Shown: positions 37,882 to 46,695 of the stretch, piece after piece | Layout of the letters: the number at the start of each line of letters is the position of its first letter | How positions within the stretch are numbered: the first letter of the stretch is position 1 | NCBI GenBank assembly: GCA_937883755.1 | Contig: CAKZYA010000038.1 | Coordinates: 1 to 64,000, forward strand | Reading direction: 5' to 3' | Source of the DNA: an uncultured Flammeovirgaceae bacterium | GTDB lineage: Bacteria > Bacteroidota > Bacteroidia > Cytophagales > Cyclobacteriaceae | DNA length: 64,000 nucleotides | Position numbers and translations under genes: made by a program | Notes under the pieces: model-generated | The model's input: only the letters and a program-made list of their open reading frames with translations | The model's database searches: none | What the model was told of the DNA's origin: nothing

Positions 37882-40077
37882 ATGACTTTAATAAAAACGC
37901 AATTTAACCGACGATCTTTTTTAAAAGTTTCCTCCGCTGCTGGAGGTGGTATGATGATCGGCTTTAACTGGTTAACCTCCTGCCAACCGGCGGGTAACGA
38001 GATGGCTGATGTGCCCAAGGAATGGTTTGACGTAAACGCCTTCATCAAAATTGGTGATAATGGGGCAGTGACCATTATGTCGCCTAACCCCGAGATTGGG
38101 CAGAACGTGAAAACCGCGATGCCAATGATTGTAGCGGAAGAGTTAGACGTGGACTGGAAAGATGTAACTGTGAAGCAAGCTCCTTTGAATACTGAAAAAT
38201 ACACTCGCCAGTTAGCGGGTGGAAGCCAGTCAATCCGGCAAGGATGGCAAAGCCTTCGGATGGCGGGAGCTTCGGCCCGTCGGGTGCTTATGGAAGCGGC
38301 GGCCCAACAGTGGGGCGTACCCGTAGGCGAACTTTCTACTACCAATGGAACGATCTCTCACACAGGTTCTGATAAATCTATCGGCTACGGTGAAATTGCC
38401 ACTACAGCAGCGGGTTTGGAAGTGCCTGAAGAAATTGAGCTGAAAGATCCGAAAGATTTTAAAATCATTGGTCAACCCACCAAGAACGTAGATGGGCCGG
38501 GAATCGTCTCTGGTAAACCTCTATTTGGATTGGACATTAAGCGAGACGGGATGATGACGGCGATGATTATCCATCCTCCGGCTTTCGGTATGAAGATTGG
38601 AGACTTTGATGCTAGTGAAGCTTTAGCTATGCCCGGTATCAAAGATGTGTTTAAAGTACAAACGGCCCCGTCTGAAGAAGGCAGAACGTGGTCGGATACC
38701 AATGCCTTTCCCGAACTGATTGCTGTAATAGGCGAAGGCACCTGGCCCGTGATGAAAGCTAAGAAAGCGATAAAAGTAAATTGGGAACAGGAAACGCCCG
38801 GTGAGAACTCCCAAGACCATGAAGCAGCCCTAGCGGAAGCCGTAACGAAAAAGACCGATGAGCCAGCTCGTAAAGATGGTGACCCGGATGCCGCGTTCCG
38901 CAATGCGGCTAAGGTAATTGAGCGAACTTATAGCGCGCCCTTCCTACCGCATAATACCATGGAGCCGATGAATTTCTTCGCTCACGTCACTTCTGAGAAA
39001 GCTGAATTGGTTGGGCCCATCCAGACCCCAGAAAATATGCGAAAGAGCGTTGCTGATTTGCTGGGAATGTCGGAAGAGAAAGTAAGTATTGATATGACTC
39101 GCATGGGCGGAGGCTTTGGCCGTCGCCTCTACGGAAACTTTGGATTGGAAGCGGCAGCTATTTCTCAGAAAGCTAATGCTCTTATTAAACTGGTTTATAC
39201 CCGTGAAGATGATATGACGCAGGGTACCTATCGCCCGGCTTATAAAATTACCTACCGGGCGGCATTAGATAGTGACAACAATCTGGTTGGCTTCCACGCT
39301 CGAGGAGCAGGTATTCAGGGCGGACCACTATTTGCTAATCGCTATCCAGCCGGGTCGGTTGATAACTATCTAGCGGAAAATCATAACGTTGAATCCAATA
39401 TATCTACCGGAGCCTGGCGGGCTCCTCGCTCTAACTTTGTGGCCGGAGCCGAGCAATCTTTCCTGGATGAAGTAGCCGAAGCCGCTGGAAAAGATCCGAT
39501 TGATTTCCGCTTGGAGTTATTTGAGCGAGCCATTAACGATCCGGTAGGTGAAGATAATGATTATGATGCTGAGCGTTACGCTGGGGTGCTGAAAGAAGTG
39601 AAAGAAAAATCGGGTTGGGGACAGGAGATGCCGGGCGTACACCGCGGAGTATCCGCTTACTACTGTCACAATTCTTACGTAGCTCAGGTGGTAGACGTAG
39701 TGATGGAGGGTGATAAACCTAAAGTACAGAAAGTATGGTGTGCCGTAGACTGCGGCATTGTGGTGAACCCCGAAGGGGCGATTAACCAGGTAGAAGGTGG
39801 TATCATTGACGGTATTGGCCACGCCCTCTACGGAGCGGTTACCTTCACCGATGGTAAGCCCGATCAGAGCAACTACGATAAGTACCGCCTCATCCGCAGC
39901 AAGGAAGCACCCGTAGAGATTGAAACCTTCTTTGTAGAAAACGGCATTGATCCTACCGGACTAGGAGAACCTTCGTTACCGCCAGTGATGGGAGCTTTAG
40001 CCAATGCCTTGTACCAAGCTACCGGAAAACGCCTCTACGATCAACCCTTCGCCCAGCGGGATATTAATATGGGTTGA
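37882..40077 (+). CDS. Molybdopterin-binding large subunit, xanthine dehydrogenase family
   Basis: A 731-residue IorB-type large subunit. A twin-arginine leader (FNRRSFLKVSS, Arg10-Arg11) sends the folded enzyme to the periplasm. Molybdopterin-binding segments follow: GGGFGRRL near residue 410, STGAWRAPRSNF near 510, and the active-site loop GLGEPSLPPVMGAL with the catalytic Glu near 695. It is transcribed with the [2Fe-2S] subunit upstream. The likely maturation factor XdhC is 7.7 kb away, beyond the AT-rich insertion. The substrate, an aldehyde or N-heterocycle, is unknown. Confidence 0.9.
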   Translation: MTLIKTQFNRRSFLKVSSAAGGGMMIGFNWLTSCQPAGNEMADVPKEWFDVNAFIKIGDNGAVTIMSPNPEIGQNVKTAMPMIVAEELDVDWKDVTVKQAPLNTEKYTRQLAGGSQSIRQGWQSLRMAGASARRVLMEAAAQQWGVPVGELSTTNGTISHTGSDKSIGYGEIATTAAGLEVPEEIELKDPKDFKIIGQPTKNVDGPGIVSGKPLFGLDIKRDGMMTAMIIHPPAFGMKIGDFDASEALAMPGIKDVFKVQTAPSEEGRTWSDTNAFPELIAVIGEGTWPVMKAKKAIKVNWEQETPGENSQDHEAALAEAVTKKTDEPARKDGDPDAAFRNAAKVIERTYSAPFLPHNTMEPMNFFAHVTSEKAELVGPIQTPENMRKSVADLLGMSEEKVSIDMTRMGGGFGRRLYGNFGLEAAAISQKANALIKLVYTREDDMTQGTYRPAYKITYRAALDSDNNLVGFHARGAGIQGGPLFANRYPAGSVDNYLAENHNVESNISTGAWRAPRSNFVAGAEQSFLDEVAEAAGKDPIDFRLELFERAINDPVGEDNDYDAERYAGVLKEVKEKSGWGQEMPGVHRGVSAYYCHNSYVAQVVDVVMEGDKPKVQKVWCAVDCGIVVNPEGAINQVEGGIIDGIGHALYGAVTFTDGKPDQSNYDKYRLIRSKEAPVEIETFFVENGIDPTGLGEPSLPPVMGALANALYQATGKRLYDQPFAQRDINMG

Positions 40078-40098: not shown

Positions 40099-40144
40099 GA
40101 ATGAAAGGGCAGGCTCGGTTGGGTTTGTCCTTTTTTTTCACTTC
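40099..40144 (+). terminator. Terminator of the hydroxylase operon; repeat copy B1
   Basis: AAAGGGCA pairs with TGTCCTTT (one G-U) and leads into a T8 run, about 25 bases after the large-subunit stop. A diverged copy of this 45-base stretch (about 80 percent identical by eye) occurs at 43490-43532, at the other end of the AT-rich operon. Confidence 0.8.
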
Positions 40145-40177: not shown

Positions 40178-41479
40178 TTATTTCTTTTTTATTCTAATTC
40201 CCAGAGTCAGACTTATACTTTGTGCTCTTGATACATTACCCTCAATAATCGCATTATACAACTGTTGGTTGTCCTTAGGTAAATCAAGGAAATCATCATA
40301 AGAATTTGATATTAAAAGGCCTTTAAACCTTTCGACTCTTCTTCTCCCATAGATCTTTGCAAGAACAATTTCGTCATCTTGAATTACTTTTTCAAAGTAA
40401 TAGTACCAACGTTCTCTTGATATTTTTGATAATTTTTCTTTAGCTATTTCAGCAGCACTATTAGAAACGCCATAACTATTTCCAAGATACACTGCTAAAT
40501 ATGCTTGCATACAATCAATTAATGCTGGAGAAGGTATCGTGCTACCTAAACTCGCAAGTTTTCTTACTACTGATGGTTCGTTATAGAAATTGTTAAATGC
40601 AAAATGTGTTTCAATTACAGCTGCGGCAGCCTTTTTGAATGTTACAGATCTTAAATTTTCTGGTACAAAATCAAATCCTCCAATTTTTAGTAGCGCATTC
40701 TTAAGTCCCGATGATGCAGTTGTATTTCCTGCTGCAGTTACATCACGGTATGCAGTACCTATGTTCCATTTGTCATTTTCTCCTAAATTTGGCCAAATAC
40801 TTTCTATCAATAAGTTGAGATTCGCTAGCGAATGTTCCAATTTGGCTCCCTTATCATTCTTGATAGATCCTAACAATATTGACATCACTGTTCTTAAATA
40901 AAAAAGTGGTGAATTTATTAGTTGTTCAATTTGAGGGTCTTTTAATGAAAGAGTCTCACTTAGTAATCGTTCTCTAAACTGGGAAAATTCAATAGCTATC
41001 GAGACATCTTCCTCTCCGAGTATGTACTGTACACTTGATTTTATTATTTGAACAGCAGATAAATTATCTATTTCTTCAGATGCGTCTTTTGAAAAATAAT
41101 GAGTAATTAATTCGTTAGCTTGTTTTAGTTTGAGAGAGGCGGTTGATCCAATAACACCAAGCTGTTCAGCTAATTGGATTGTAGTATAGTCTGTCAGTGC
41201 GGTATCTATAGTAGAAAATTCGTCTATATCATTCCTCCCTAACATTTCACCTATAAACTTCATTCCTAAGGTAGAAATGGTTTCTTTTAGCTTTACCATT
41301 GCCTTCTTCCAAGCATATTCAGCAGCCATATCATAGGCCTCAATCTGAAAAGCAGCAACAATTTGATTTCTTTGTTTTTCGGACAAATAGTTTGCATAAG
41401 AGACGATATCGTTTGTGTCATTTACATTTGCAGGGATTTTTATCCCGTCCGGTCCTTGCCAAAGTTGTATTTCGCTCAT
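40178..41479 (-). CDS. Helical protein of unknown family, coupled to the DisA_N-like gene
   Basis: About 433 residues from the Met at 41479; that ATG overlaps the stop of the upstream gene as ATGA and is preceded by GGGAAAG, so translation is coupled. A Met four codons earlier is the alternative. The protein is acidic to neutral and almost all alpha-helical by composition, with no membrane helix, Walker motif or nuclease motif. A basic patch (GRRRVERFKG) lies near residue 390 and a Lys-rich tail (RIKKK) ends it. It resembles no family I know. Tight coupling suggests it binds or acts on behalf of the DisA_N-like sensor. The region is more AT-rich than the flanking core genes. Confidence 0.65.
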   Translation of the reverse strand: MSEIQLWQGPDGIKIPANVNDTNDIVSYANYLSEKQRNQIVAAFQIEAYDMAAEYAWKKAMVKLKETISTLGMKFIGEMLGRNDIDEFSTIDTALTDYTTIQLAEQLGVIGSTASLKLKQANELITHYFSKDASEEIDNLSAVQIIKSSVQYILGEEDVSIAIEFSQFRERLLSETLSLKDPQIEQLINSPLFYLRTVMSILLGSIKNDKGAKLEHSLANLNLLIESIWPNLGENDKWNIGTAYRDVTAAGNTTASSGLKNALLKIGGFDFVPENLRSVTFKKAAAAVIETHFAFNNFYNEPSVVRKLASLGSTIPSPALIDCMQAYLAVYLGNSYGVSNSAAEIAKEKLSKISRERWYYYFEKVIQDDEIVLAKIYGRRRVERFKGLLISNSYDDFLDLPKDNQQLYNAIIEGNVSRAQSISLTLGIRIKKK

Positions 41480-42528
41480 TTTCTTTCCCATATTTTAGTA
41501 TTTCCATCTTGTGATTTATAAAAACAAGCTGAAAATAATTTAGAATTAACCATTGATTGATATGCACGAGTCCTTGCGCCCCCAATTGGCTGTTCACCAT
41601 CTTCTTTAACAATTGGTTCTATAAACATATGATATCCAAGAATCTTTGCTTTATCTGTAATCACAGCGATTCCGTCATGATTTAACATTGAAATCATAAC
41701 CTTACCGAAAGCCGTTAATGAAACAGATGACTCATTGGTTTTTTCTTTTTCTGTATAGACTACATAGTCAGCGATATCAATAGGTGTTTTGAGGTAAACT
41801 CCGTCTGGTAGCTTTATTTTTAGTTGGTTTATTATTTCTTTATCATCTGCAACAATACCTATTAAATTCCCATGGCCTTGTTTGATGGCACTCTTAATAG
41901 TTTTGTCGATAAATGTCGTAATTTGGGTTTTAAATTCCTCATCACATTCTCGAGTTATTGCCTGAGAAATTTGATTTATCTCATTGTTGCTCGTAGTGAG
42001 GATTTTATCCAAAGTTAAGGAAACTATGAGTTTTTTCTTTAGTCCAGTAAGCTCAACTGTCTTACTACCAATATTTTTCAAATAGGCTATATTAATGCCA
42101 TTAAGTTCCACTTTTAATTCCCCTACTGTTTGTTCGTAAATTGATGGGCTTGTTTCAGTCATTTCTGCATCAACTAAACCGTACTTCATTCTATTTTTAT
42201 TCACCTCAATGAAAATAATCCAACTTCCAACTGCTAAAGGGGCACATAATTTAATGATTTTTTTAAATTTAGATACTGCTAGCTCCTCTTCTGCAATTAA
42301 TACTTCTCTATTAGAAATAGTCTTGAAAAACTCACCTGAATTATTTGTTACCAAAACTTCTGGAAACAGATGATTTCCCTCTTCAAAGTAATCAGAAAGA
42401 AGATTTATTAATTCTAATATTCCTTCTTTGAGTATTGTACTATTTTGAAAAGTTTCATCAAGTAAAAACTCTGCAATAGAAGCCAAGGTGTTATCTCTAA
42501 GAGATGCTAATTTTTCTTCTTGGTTCAT
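41476..42528 (-). CDS. DisA_N-like nucleotide-sensor domain protein
   Basis: A 350-residue protein. Its C-terminal part (about 205-350) follows the layout of DisA_N-like (diadenylate cyclase-type) domains: KQGHGNLIGIV (216-226), TAFGKVMISMLNHDGIAVI (272-290) where cyclases have the DGA motif, ILGYHMFI, then GGARTRA (316-322) where cyclases have RHR. DGA is DGI here and RHR is RTR, so it is more likely a nucleotide sensor of the DACN type than an active c-di-AMP synthase. The N-terminal 200 residues are unrecognised. No membrane helix. It is coupled to the next gene by ATGA. A homology search is needed to confirm the fold. Confidence 0.6.
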   Translation of the reverse strand: MNQEEKLASLRDNTLASIAEFLLDETFQNSTILKEGILELINLLSDYFEEGNHLFPEVLVTNNSGEFFKTISNREVLIAEEELAVSKFKKIIKLCAPLAVGSWIIFIEVNKNRMKYGLVDAEMTETSPSIYEQTVGELKVELNGINIAYLKNIGSKTVELTGLKKKLIVSLTLDKILTTSNNEINQISQAITRECDEEFKTQITTFIDKTIKSAIKQGHGNLIGIVADDKEIINQLKIKLPDGVYLKTPIDIADYVVYTEKEKTNESSVSLTAFGKVMISMLNHDGIAVITDKAKILGYHMFIEPIVKEDGEQPIGGARTRAYQSMVNSKLFSACFYKSQDGNTKIWERK

Positions 42529-42645
42529 TTATTTTCTTCTAATGATCAAATAAACTCATTGAGTATATTTTTCTTATTTAATTCAAAGTTGCTGCTCTCA
42601 CTAATTTTTGCTCAAGGCACGTGTGCTCATGGAGCCTATTATTTG

Positions 42646-42837
42646 TTAGTTCTTTTCTGAAATCACATGAACCTTCTCTTTGTTCAGATAGATTTTTTTT
42701 CCATTTCTTTCAATAATAACATAACCGCTTGAATCTAATGATAGCAGTTTACCATTCTCGGTTGATTTAGTACTACCCGCATTTTCGTATTCTACTTCAA
42801 CATTCTTTCCTATCAGAGCAACAATGAAATTGTCCAT
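42646..42837 (-). CDS. Small Sm-like-fold protein (63 aa)
   Basis: A 63-residue protein with the strand pattern of an Sm or Hfq-like barrel: LIGKNVEVEY, then GKLLSLDSSGYVIIE, NGKKIYLN and VHVISE. Sm-like proteins form rings and bind RNA, but short SH3-like barrels of other function look similar. It starts 2 bases after the membrane-protein gene ends, so it is in the same operon; the next gene follows after 117 bases. Confidence 0.5.
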   Translation of the reverse strand: MDNFIVALIGKNVEVEYENAGSTKSTENGKLLSLDSSGYVIIERNGKKIYLNKEKVHVISEKN

Positions 42838-42839
42838 AA

Positions 42840-43397
42840 CTATTTCTTTATTAATTGGATACTTGATTGTATTTTTTTTACAAAATATTGAGTGTCAATT
42901 GAGGCAATATTACCAAAGCAGAAAACAGATATGCTAATGCTAATCGCAATAATTCCACAGATCCTAATTACCGTTTTTAAATTTGGTAGATTTTTTATTT
43001 TGAAGAAACTCCCTATCCCAATTAATAAGAAAGCTAATGAACTCCCATTGAGTAGTTCAGCTTTTTGATCAAGGGAAAATAAATGTTTAAGAAGTAGGTC
43101 ATTTTTGGTTTGTGAAACAATCATGATTCGCTCAACTTGATCTATGTCGGGTGTTCCAAACGCGAAAGAAGATATCGATGAAGAGAGGAAGATTGCATAT
43201 AGCCCTACAATATAAGCGATAGCTAAGGATGGAATGGAAGCTAATAAAGTCCAAGAAGGAGTTTTAGCATAGGTGTTTAAATAATGGTATATCTTAGAAT
43301 TTGATCCATCAATAATGAGGTAAAATCCCAATATGCAAATAGCACCAATTCCTGTAGCACCTGCAAATCCTTGTATTGTATTCCACGGTATCCCCAT
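42840..43397 (-). CDS. Four-helix membrane protein, unknown
   Basis: A 185-residue membrane protein with four helices (about 10-29, 46-76, 118-130 and 143-164) and a roughly 40-residue polar loop (residues 77-117) between helices 2 and 3. It is the first gene of the AT-rich leftward operon with the Sm-like, DisA_N-like and helical genes. Small multi-helix membrane proteins are common effectors in nucleotide-signalled conflict systems, but no specific family was recognised here, so effector function is only a suggestion. Confidence 0.6.
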   Translation of the reverse strand: MGIPWNTIQGFAGATGIGAICILGFYLIIDGSNSKIYHYLNTYAKTPSWTLLASIPSLAIAYIVGLYAIFLSSSISSFAFGTPDIDQVERIMIVSQTKNDLLLKHLFSLDQKAELLNGSSLAFLLIGIGSFFKIKNLPNLKTVIRICGIIAISISISVFCFGNIASIDTQYFVKKIQSSIQLIKK

Positions 43398-43429
43398 TAC
43401 TTTTTCTATAAGTAATACTCTTAAGCCGA

Positions 43430-43491
43430 CATGATTTAAGTGTAATAGCTAACAATGAGCTTACGACTCAATATACAAACTCTAAGGAAGA
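43430..43491. repeat. Direct repeat copy A1
   Basis: A 62-base stretch about 80 percent identical, without gaps, to copy A2 at 46577-46638. Core words shared are ATTTAAGTGTAATAGC and CAATATACAAACT. It abuts repeat B2. The two copies bracket the S9 peptidase and the two-gene AT-rich unit. Confidence 0.75.
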
Positions 43492-43532
43492 ATGAAAGGG
43501 TAGGTTCAGTAGAGTTTGTCTTTTTTTGCTTC
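43490..43532. repeat. Repeat copy B2, degenerate terminator
   Basis: A diverged copy of the hydroxylase terminator at 40099-40144 (GAATGAAAGGG, then GTTTGTC and a T7 run). On this strand no gene ends just upstream, so it has no obvious job here; it reads as a duplicated remnant at the right edge of the four-gene operon. Its stem is weaker than in B1. Confidence 0.7.
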
Positions 43533-43651: not shown

Positions 43652-45598
43652 CTATTTACCGCTATTTATTTCAACGCTCTTAACTGTCTCCTCTAACCAC
43701 TTAAAGAATTCTCTTTGCCAGACTAAGCTGTTTTGGGCGGAAAGTACCCAGTGGTTTTCTTCCGGGAAATATAAAAGCTTTGATTTGATCCCTTGCAGTT
43801 GAGCTGCCTGAAAAGCTTCTAATCCCTGGCCAATGGGCACTCTAAAATCTTTTCCTCCTTGAATAATCAGGATGGGCGTATCCCATTTATCGACAAAATT
43901 GATCGGATTAAATTCAGAATACGTCTTTTGAGCAGCAGCATTGTCTTTATCCCAATAGGCACCACCCAAATCCCAGTTCACAAAGAATAACTCTTCGGTG
44001 GTTCCGTACATGGATCTCCAATTGAAAATACCATCGTGAGAAATGAATGATTTAAATCTGCCTTCATGTCGGGAAGCTAAGTAAAAAACAGAGTATCCGC
44101 CATAACTAGCTCCCACGCAACCCAATCTATCGGTATCTACATAGGACTCTTTGGCAACATCATCAATGGCAGAAAGGTAATCCTTCATATTTTGTCCACC
44201 ATAATCTTTTGAGATTTGTTCATTCCACTCGACACCGTAACCGGGCATACCTCTTCGGTTGGGGGCGACTACGATGTAGCCATTCGCCGCCATAATTTGA
44301 AAGTTCCACCTAAAAGAATAAAATTGAGATAAAGCCCCTTGGGGTCCACCTTGACAATAAAGAAGGGTGGGATATTTTTTAGTGGGGTCAAAGTCTGGTG
44401 GATAGATCACCCACGTAACCATATCTTTTCCATCAGTGGTCTTGACCATTCTCTTTTCTATCTTAGACATTTTGATGTCTTCGTAGATTTCATCATTCGC
44501 TTGAGATAACTGTTTCATTGCACCCGTTTCGATATTCAGGTTATAAATCTCAGTGGCATGATTCATATCCATTCTGTACACCACTAGGTGATCTCCGCTT
44601 TGACCTATAATGCCATTTATATCAAATTGGCCATTAGAAATTTGTGTAGGCTTTGCTTGGGCTTGCTTACCAACCGGAACATCGATTTGAAATGCATGGA
44701 CTGTTCCACCTACTGGAGCGTTAAAATAAATTTTGGAACCATCTTCACTCCAAATAAATCCATTGACAGTACCGTCCCAATCCTCAGTAAGGTTCACATC
44801 TCCTTCTGGTAGCCGGACGATAATATCATTTTTATCAGATTCATAACCATCTCGTTCCATTTGCAACCAAGCGAGAGTGCCTTGGGAGGAAAATGCAGGG
44901 TGCGTATCATAGCCTTTATTACCCTCGGTAAGGTTAGTGGTTTGCTTGGTTTCCAGGTTGTACTCGTAGATATCTGAATTGGTGCTGACAGCATATTCGG
45001 TACCCGCTAATTTCTTAGTAACGTACAACACCTTTTTGGAATCGGGACTCCAGATATAATCTTCGTCCCCACCAAATGGTTTTTGCGGACAATCAAATGG
45101 CTTTCCTTCCATCAAGTCAATTCCATTATCCAGGGTATCGGTTGCCGATTGTATAAATACATGACTATAGGAGCCATCTTCCCAAGTGTCCCAGTGTCGG
45201 TAGTTTAGTTGATCATATATGAAGACATTTGAATTAGGGACATCATTATAGTGATCAGTACCACTGACGTTCTGGATTTTTACATCCTTGGCCACTAATT
45301 TCCATTTTCCGTCTGGGGACACATTTTTATCCTTCACCCGATCCCCAACTTCAGCCAAGGAAGTATGATCTTCACCATCAACCGAAACGGAATAGGTTTT
45401 ACTTGAGCGTTCATTTGTCTCTAAATCAAAGGTTGATGTTCGGTAAATCACTTGCTTCCCATCCTGGCTTAAGCCCACTGCAGAAACTCTGTTTAATTCA
45501 ATGAGCTGCTCCGCTGTCATTACTTTTGATTGGCAGATTCCAAGCGTGAAAATGAAGGTGCCACACAGTGTTAATATCAAAGTCTTTCTCATGATCAA
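43652..45598 (-). CDS. S9-family (prolyl oligopeptidase-type) peptidase
   Basis: A 648-residue exported serine peptidase (signal peptide about 1-23). A seven-bladed beta-propeller (about 30-370, with repeated SPDSKKVLYV-type blades) precedes an alpha/beta-hydrolase domain. The catalytic triad region is intact: GASYGGY nucleophile Ser, Asp in GGKDFRVPIG, His in EENHWVLS. Such enzymes cleave dipeptides or acyl-peptides in the periplasm. It lies between repeats A1/B2 and A2 and has base use closer to the core genome than the neighbouring AT-rich genes. Confidence 0.9.
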   Translation of the reverse strand: MIMRKTLILTLCGTFIFTLGICQSKVMTAEQLIELNRVSAVGLSQDGKQVIYRTSTFDLETNERSSKTYSVSVDGEDHTSLAEVGDRVKDKNVSPDGKWKLVAKDVKIQNVSGTDHYNDVPNSNVFIYDQLNYRHWDTWEDGSYSHVFIQSATDTLDNGIDLMEGKPFDCPQKPFGGDEDYIWSPDSKKVLYVTKKLAGTEYAVSTNSDIYEYNLETKQTTNLTEGNKGYDTHPAFSSQGTLAWLQMERDGYESDKNDIIVRLPEGDVNLTEDWDGTVNGFIWSEDGSKIYFNAPVGGTVHAFQIDVPVGKQAQAKPTQISNGQFDINGIIGQSGDHLVVYRMDMNHATEIYNLNIETGAMKQLSQANDEIYEDIKMSKIEKRMVKTTDGKDMVTWVIYPPDFDPTKKYPTLLYCQGGPQGALSQFYSFRWNFQIMAANGYIVVAPNRRGMPGYGVEWNEQISKDYGGQNMKDYLSAIDDVAKESYVDTDRLGCVGASYGGYSVFYLASRHEGRFKSFISHDGIFNWRSMYGTTEELFFVNWDLGGAYWDKDNAAAQKTYSEFNPINFVDKWDTPILIIQGGKDFRVPIGQGLEAFQAAQLQGIKSKLLYFPEENHWVLSAQNSLVWQREFFKWLEETVKSVEINSGK

Positions 45599-46464: not shown

Positions 46465-46558
46465 AAGCACAACAACCGTGTAACATCAACTAGTCTCCGT
46501 TATCCGGCTGATATTGGCGGGTAACGGAGATATTGCCGTTATTTTTTCTATAGGCAAT
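46465..46558. repeat. Boundary hairpins upstream of the two-gene unit
   Basis: TTAAGCACAACAA at 46463-46475 is the inverted partner of TTGTTGTGCTTA at 45793-45804. Next come perfect inverted repeats TCTCCGTTA (46494-46502) with TAACGGAGA (46522-46530), and ATTGCC (46532-46537) with GGCAAT (46553-46558). The arrangement marks the 5' edge of the two-gene unit. No gene lies in the 387 bases from here to 46844. Confidence 0.6.
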
Positions 46559-46576
46559 GCTCTTTTTCTAAGCTGG

Positions 46577-46638
46577 CATCATTTAAGTGTAATAGCCACT
46601 AATGGCCTTACGTTCCAATATACAAACTTTAATAAAGA
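46577..46638. repeat. Direct repeat copy A2
   Basis: Partner of A1 at 43430-43491 (about 80 percent identity, no gaps). It forms the right boundary of the S9 peptidase segment plus the two-gene unit. Confidence 0.75.
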
Positions 46639-46695
46639 GTCTATTACTTTTTAACGGAGAACATTGAACCCGAGTCAATACAAAGAGGAAAGTAT

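Follow-up and report, generated by a model that had tools for sequence, protein, structure and literature searches.

What does a compact block of four leftward genes, lower in GC content than the DNA around it, contribute to the uncultured Flammeovirgaceae bacterium that carries it, and which of the four genes belong together? The block lies in the window analyzed here, by which we mean the whole 64,000-nucleotide (nt) stretch at positions 1 to 64,000 of contig CAKZYA010000038.1 (assembly GCA_937883755.1). A preliminary description of this DNA had proposed a four-gene module for nucleotide sensing in stress or defense. Our analysis centers on two of the genes, which encode a 350-amino-acid (aa) protein, P2 (P0002; 41476..42528, minus strand), with a conserved N-terminal part and a C-terminal DisA_N-like domain, and an all-helical 433-aa protein, P1 (P0001; 40178..41479, minus strand). 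We tentatively read this P2-P1 core, with somewhat less than even confidence, as a laterally moving two-gene defense module in which P1 would be the sensing scaffold and P2 the output.

The pairing of the two genes is recurrent. When species genomes were scanned with the P1 alignment, 98 relatives emerged and 80 were kept. At 51 of these 80 loci P2 immediately precedes P1 and is encoded on the same strand. The junction is mostly an overlap of a few bases, and in the window the P2 stop and P1 start overlap as ATGA, so that the coupling and the overlap described earlier both hold. The remaining 29 relatives comprise four with a caspase, three fused to a Ser/Thr kinase, 19 stand-alone P1 proteins, and three that are broken or at a contig edge. 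The pair also occurs on two plasmid records found by tblastn with P0002 (Agrobacterium and Vibrio), each with a P1 homolog directly downstream of P2 (39% and 38% identical), and on one viral contig (L153), while a second viral contig (L154) carries a caspase-P1 fusion. The two proteins share a history: across 47 loci the P1 and P2 distances correlate with r 0.944, a value not reached in any of 2000 permutations, at mean identities of 41% for P1 and 29% for P2. The P2 alignment behind these values left out four of the 51 paired loci, three in which P2 is short (L023, L045, L059) and one in which P1 is broken (L070).

The other two genes of the block stand outside this conserved unit. They encode a 63-aa protein (P0003; 42646..42837, minus strand) and a 185-aa membrane protein (P0004; 42840..43397, minus strand), with 2 bases between the 185-aa and 63-aa genes and 117 bases between the 63-aa and P2 genes; the spacing given previously for the open reading frames (ORFs), and the sizes where stated, agree with the ORF coordinates. 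BLASTP of both small proteins (E ≤1) against ORFs of at least 50 aa in loci L002-L089 gave no match, in a set where the flanks of some loci are short and distant similarity might escape. Across 295 other genomes of the phylum, P0004 matched just three, each time weakly and over part of its length. On the lack of small-protein matches in L002-L089 we rejected the four genes as a conserved unit; of the four-gene co-occurrence that had been expected, the part concerning P2 and P1 is found elsewhere and the part concerning the two small genes is not. The "Sm-like" label of the 63-aa protein traces to matches below the curated cut-offs (RimP C-terminal SH3, MM0924), and the protein is SH3/RimP-C-like at best. 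In place of the four membrane helices assigned to the 185-aa protein, a simple hydropathy scan finds three clear transmembrane (TM) segments.

The preliminary description also pointed to pairs of a sensor and a membrane effector in bacterial conflict systems, and the relatives do not support such pairing as a rule. Co-directional genes that lie within 300 nt and encode 60-300 aa have at least two predicted TM segments in 4 of 41 cases, compared with 25 of 452 genes that lie farther away or on the opposite strand (Fisher p 0.29), and on this count we rejected a membrane effector as a regular companion of the pair. Three of the four positives are the same 204-aa gene, present at three Vibrio loci, and the fourth is a SLATT_5 protein. 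Except for that 204-aa gene, no gene keeps one place beside the pair as a conserved third component would: 797 flanking genes from 61 loci (54 with P2, seven with caspase or kinase) formed 10 clusters present in at least three loci, the widest in seven. The 204-aa membrane protein directly follows P1 (0-3 nt; L042 9326-9940, L048 9326-9940, L005 3225-3839) and is a possible local third component in these three loci.

In regard to P2, residues ~182-350 (41479..41985, minus strand) make up the DisA_N-like domain, which is recognized by a structure match to DisA/CdaA and by conservation in 48 members. The domain contains H219-G220, D285-G286-I287, G316-G317-A318-R319-x-R321, and S339-Q340-D341-G342, with DGI at 285-287 and GGARTRA at 316-322 exactly where they had been placed. 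The window P2 itself has no match to Pfam DAC (PF02457) or to any other Pfam family, and four of the 48 family members match PF02457 weakly (best E 0.0014). Profile-profile alignment of the P2 family with 16 diadenylate cyclase (DAC) sequences runs in register, with a local probability of 40% (E 2.9e-4) and a global probability of 57% (E 1.5e-5), each E value referring to a single comparison, and a sequence search of the PDB with the P2 alignment gave two matches with E values of 0.056 (2fb5) and 0.16. The fold match, the weak Pfam matches in relatives, and the alignment in register bear out the DisA_N-like assignment. A 580-aa Bacteroidota protein (L116; G313:C94) with a diverged DAC domain (44.9 bits) has HG, DGA, RGSRY, and SVDG arranged much like the layout of P2.

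Fifteen P2 residues are invariant across the 48 members at the 29% mean identity noted above. In all 48, the DGA position keeps its D and G, RHR its first R, and the SEE region its S, and both the DGA and RHR motifs of diadenylate cyclases are altered across the family. The DGA position reads DGI in 45 members and DGV in three; at RHR, R319 is present in all 48 and the second R in 40, with S, T, R, or K between them and never H; and the E of the SEE region is replaced by Q (46) or H (two). The preliminary description took the altered motifs to favor sensing over synthesis; this mixture of kept and changed letters would suit either. In the M. tuberculosis enzyme, RHR is required for ATP binding (PMC3328451). 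P2 resembles the DisA/CdaA diadenylate cyclase domain (DisA_N, PF02457) in fold and differs from it in having no Pfam match, in reading DGI for DGA, RTR for RHR, and SQD in the SEE region, and in possessing an extra conserved N-terminal part. The invariant pocket suggests that P2 makes, uses, or transfers a nucleotide.

A DisA_N fold with altered catalytic letters would also suit the earlier nucleotide-sensor proposal cut down to two genes, in which the P2 pocket senses a nucleotide and gates P1, and the HEPN-HEAT body of P1 acts on RNA or some other target. Of the two proteins P2 evolves the faster, and some loci have nucleotide-signaling neighbors, namely a DncV-like run in L019, an annotated nucleotidyltransferase and patatin in L004, and SLATT_5 in L058, all of which fit a sensor.

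P1 has no family above cut-off in Pfam, NCBIfam, or PADLOC. Its best Pfam match, RbmA-like_FnIII (E 0.015), is below the family cut-off and was rejected, and no library match, all being absent or below cut-off, could supply a name for either P1 or P2. A PDB sequence search with the P1 alignment found no match, and Foldseek returned nothing with E <0.001 in the PDB or BFVD. Residues ~29-161 (40997..41395, minus strand) form a probable HEPN domain that has lost the canonical motif, followed by a region of HEAT/ARM-like helical repeats (residues ~157-414; 40238..41011, minus strand). The HEPN assignment comes from a helical-bundle match at Z 9.5, a value that a common helix arrangement can give.

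The fate of the HEPN motif separates two kinds of P1. RN(x5)H is present in all 28 stand-alone rows, and an R at the motif column is found in 0/55 P2-paired, 0/4 caspase, and 0/3 kinase rows; Rx4-6H is absent at the aligned columns in the window P1 and in all 62 P2-paired or fused rows. The count dropped pieces shorter than 250 aa (L051, L053, L070), and two loci have no letters at the motif columns (L063, L064). Among the 55 paired rows the window locus counts double (W, L001), as probably does one Hymenobacter locus (L002 and L052, with equal scores), and L153, which carries P2 and has no HEPN motif, lies outside them. A loose R(x4-6)H occurs within ~15 residues of the motif columns in 12 of the 55 rows, and we take the aligned-column count as the evidence. 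Stand-alone relatives (L006-L009, L071-L089, L155-L159) have ORFs of ~430-540 aa and are found on plasmids, genome contigs, and viral contigs; they are likely an unnamed HEPN RNase family. Four of them, L006, L007, L009, and L072, together with L084, gave no Pfam family above cut-off. P1 probably resembles the HEPN RNases surveyed by Anantharaman et al. (2013; PMC3710099) in the helical bundle at residues 29-161, and RN(x5)H in the stand-alone proteins spans a helix end and the start of the following loop, the location given in that survey. Unlike those RNases, P1 has no Pfam HEPN match and has a long HEAT-like extension, and the motif is lost in every paired and fused P1 row counted.

If P1 were nonetheless still an RNase by way of other residues, P2 might act as its restraint, perhaps by nucleotide transfer, as in MNT-HEPN (HepT/MntA), which likewise couples a nucleotide-type protein to a HEPN-like protein. 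We consider this unlikely. P2 differs from the MNT partner in its DisA_N fold and matches no Pfam family, the HEPN motif of P1 is lost, the His of P1 is missing in L031, L066, and L067 as well as in the kinase rows L065 and L068, and the caspase or kinase that stands where P2 would does not resemble a keeper.

In relatives, a caspase-type protease or Ser/Thr kinase, fused to P1 or just upstream of it, occupies the position that P2 has in the pair. Pfam identifies the caspase domain in L054 (E 5.6e-11) and in L051 (E 6.8e-15), where it is a separate gene upstream and P1 is in two pieces, and the kinase domain in L065 (E 5.3e-32) and L068 (E 2.1e-29); L055, L057, and L061 were called caspase or kinase by sequence likeness and catalytic motifs. 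The catalytic motifs are intact in the caspase fusions L054, L055, L057, and L154 and in the kinase fusions L061, L065, and L068. In a quick maximum-likelihood tree of 65 P1 sequences, on which five fusions are placed, the stand-alone P1 proteins are set apart (support 100) and the five fusions form one group (SH-aLRT 97) inside the P2-paired set. In L061, the kinase-P1 fusion begins within the last 22 bases of a gene (1119-2198) for a 359-aa protein without a Pfam family.

Caspases and kinases serve as a rule as effectors or relays, not as ligand sensors. Because relatives have a caspase or kinase with intact motifs where P2 would be, an output role for P2 is at least as likely as a sensor role, and because the HEPN motif of P1 is also lost, we assign sensing or scaffolding to P1 and output to P2. 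The same two observations, the absence of the motif from paired P1 and the exchange of P2 for a caspase or kinase, argue against P2 as a nucleotide sensor gating P1, which we regard as possible rather than probable.

The surroundings of the pair point to defense. We scanned 142 of 176 picked flanking genes, from 50 of the 51 paired loci, at E ≤1e-8; the 34 genes left out are the longest, mainly second downstream genes. The flanking genes matched 252 PADLOC families, and a control of 140 genes taken from the neighborhoods of DAC genes in 20 genomes of Bacteroidota matched 19, which is an enrichment whose exact size the counts do not give. The control is confined to Bacteroidota and so differs in lineage mix, and PADLOC models are redundant. 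The defense context proposed at the outset is upheld in this way across the relatives. Among the families listed are Argonaute with SIR2, TIR, type IIG restriction, reverse transcriptase-linked SLATT, and DISARM- and Hma-type methylases; a Pfam scan of the same genes returned housekeeping families too. At individual loci, a TIR gene lies 98 bases upstream of the pair with a DndB-type gene farther up (L010), Piwi and SIR2 genes lie near it (L015), and SLATT_5 lies beside it (L058), with ordinary neighbors such as a tRNA synthetase (L028) and a TonB receptor (L011) elsewhere. The PADLOC (2023) models gave no match to P0001-P0004 at E ≤1, and against 65 members of the P1 alignment three models matched one member each (E 6.7e-4 to 7.1e-3).

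In L019, genes for a patatin, a DncV-like cyclase, an E2/ThiF protein, and a JAB protein precede P2 and P1, and a second patatin gene follows 10 nt on; the four-gene run directly upstream resembles a cyclic oligonucleotide-based antiphage signaling system (CBASS) and is separate from the pair. In L004, annotated nucleotidyltransferase and patatin genes stand divergently, and the nucleotidyltransferase has no Pfam match at 1e-4. Such CBASS-type genes, in L019 and probably L004, raise the prospect that a nucleotide made constantly by P2 holds P1 inactive until phage sponges of CBASS signals release it, as in Panoptes, for which nucleotide synthases coupled to HEPN RNases are reported (PMC12657218). 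We judge this very improbable: the CBASS neighbors come from single loci only, with no survey across the 51 paired loci, the HEPN motif of P1 is lost, and the caspase or kinase at the P2 position is unlike a constant inhibitor. The pair shares with CBASS and Panoptes a nucleotide-type enzyme fold in a small operon, and CBASS-type genes adjoin it in L019. It differs in having no detected CD-NTase family, no such Pfam domain being present in P0001-P0004, and no common dedicated effector; the Panoptes enzymes are likened here by description only.

An ordinary stress or housekeeping regulator would sit comfortably among the window neighbors, which look metabolic or of no evident function by eye, and among the housekeeping genes in some relatives' flanks. 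We think such a role quite unlikely. The P2-P1 pair is rare and patchy: a P2 profile found, among 395 genomes of the phylum, its own genome and one broken copy (G338), and P0002 found, among 291 genomes of the order, its own genome, one good match, and one marginal match. The nearest P1 relatives, 86% identical, belong to two different families, Splendidivirgaceae (a Splendidivirga locus) and Flavobacteriaceae (Flavobacterium pokkalii). The pair also resides on plasmids and one viral contig, its flanks are enriched in defense genes, and its site varies among genus relatives. Searches of phage records, at E 0.01 with P0002 and at E 0.001 with P0001, came back empty.

The site of the block is consistent with lateral movement. 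On its left lies an aldehyde/xanthine-oxidase-like gene (37882-40077) and on its other side a prolyl-oligopeptidase-like gene (43652-45598), both named by eye. The oxidase-like gene is kept in three of three genus relatives. In G673 and G671, the two whose contigs extend far enough, the sequence that follows is not the same, and one of them has an IS4-like transposase there; since different genes follow the oxidase-like gene in G673 and G671, the site is variable. The block is flanked, as had been noticed, by diverged copies of one terminator-like sequence, a 38-nt direct repeat (left copy 40099..40136, right copy 43490..43527, both plus strand) whose copies are 84% identical. A pattern derived from the repeat, with up to three mismatches, finds these two copies only, whether the window or the entire 7.6-Mb genome is searched, and shuffles of the window give an expected count of 0.00 on average. 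The left copy aligns after the oxidase-like gene in both G673 and G671, and the right copy also does so in G673, a pattern compatible with inserted DNA that has a copy of the same terminator at each end. The AT-richness first described is likewise evident: GC content is 32.5-34.8% in the 2-kb intervals starting at 40001, 41001, and 42001 and 37-50% elsewhere, directly adjacent intervals excepted.

Taken as a defense module, the P2-P1 core may work as follows. P1, with its degenerate HEPN domain and HEAT-like repeats, would be the trigger-sensing scaffold, and P2, with its DisA_N fold and strictly kept nucleotide-type pocket, the output under its control. Infection would change the state of P1 and thereby switch on P2, which would then make or consume a nucleotide, or transfer one to a target, and so stop growth; the module would probably act by abortive infection. 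We infer these roles, as we do a ligand, a substrate, and an anti-phage effect. A bolder version makes P2 a working enzyme of DisA_N fold that catalyzes a new reaction, other than cyclic di-AMP synthesis, as an infection-triggered output interchangeable with a caspase or kinase under a pseudo-HEPN/HEAT sensor that is itself related to stand-alone HEPN RNases; we hold this version, with that relationship as a part of it, to be doubtful though worth entertaining.

Several points weigh against the defense-module interpretation. P2 departs from diadenylate cyclases at their catalytic letters (DGI, RxR, SQD). The loci share no downstream receptor gene, and any diffusible product would therefore have to act on a target of the host. 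The faster evolution of P2 relative to P1 also suits P2 as the part facing a phage or a variable ligand. The HEPN identity of P1 comes from a bundle match that may reflect a common arrangement, and the branches that nest the fusions within the P2-paired set are only moderately supported (83, 91). Finally, the genes beside the block in the window itself do not look defensive by eye.

DisA_N-like sensor domains of nucleotide-centered conflict systems were reportedly described by Burroughs et al. in 2015, and the domain itself is therefore not novel. Like the sensors reported there, P2 is related to DisA_N, has altered motifs, and occurs in a conflict setting; it would differ from them in its partner protein and in the exchange with caspase or kinase. 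P1 and P2 are unnamed in all libraries searched. Open-access titles and abstracts showed no description of the P2-P1 pair, in searches that were partly on neighboring topics and had subscription literature mostly outside their scope, and in PMC8195603 and PMC7159879, examined for the words DisA, DACN, and HEPN, no passage concerned DisA-like domains. The pair is a compact, widely spread candidate defense module with a partner family unnamed in the searched libraries. A DisA_N protein, a caspase, and a kinase in one slot constitute a natural experiment in re-wiring immune sensors to new outputs, and P1 links stand-alone proteins bearing the HEPN motif to a degenerate, probably regulatory relative.

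Lastly, the window contains a dispersed repeat, of which 43394-43491 and 46481-46664 are related copies. A search with the longer copy found nine places in the genome, its own place counted, and copies occur also in the examined stretches of two genus relatives.

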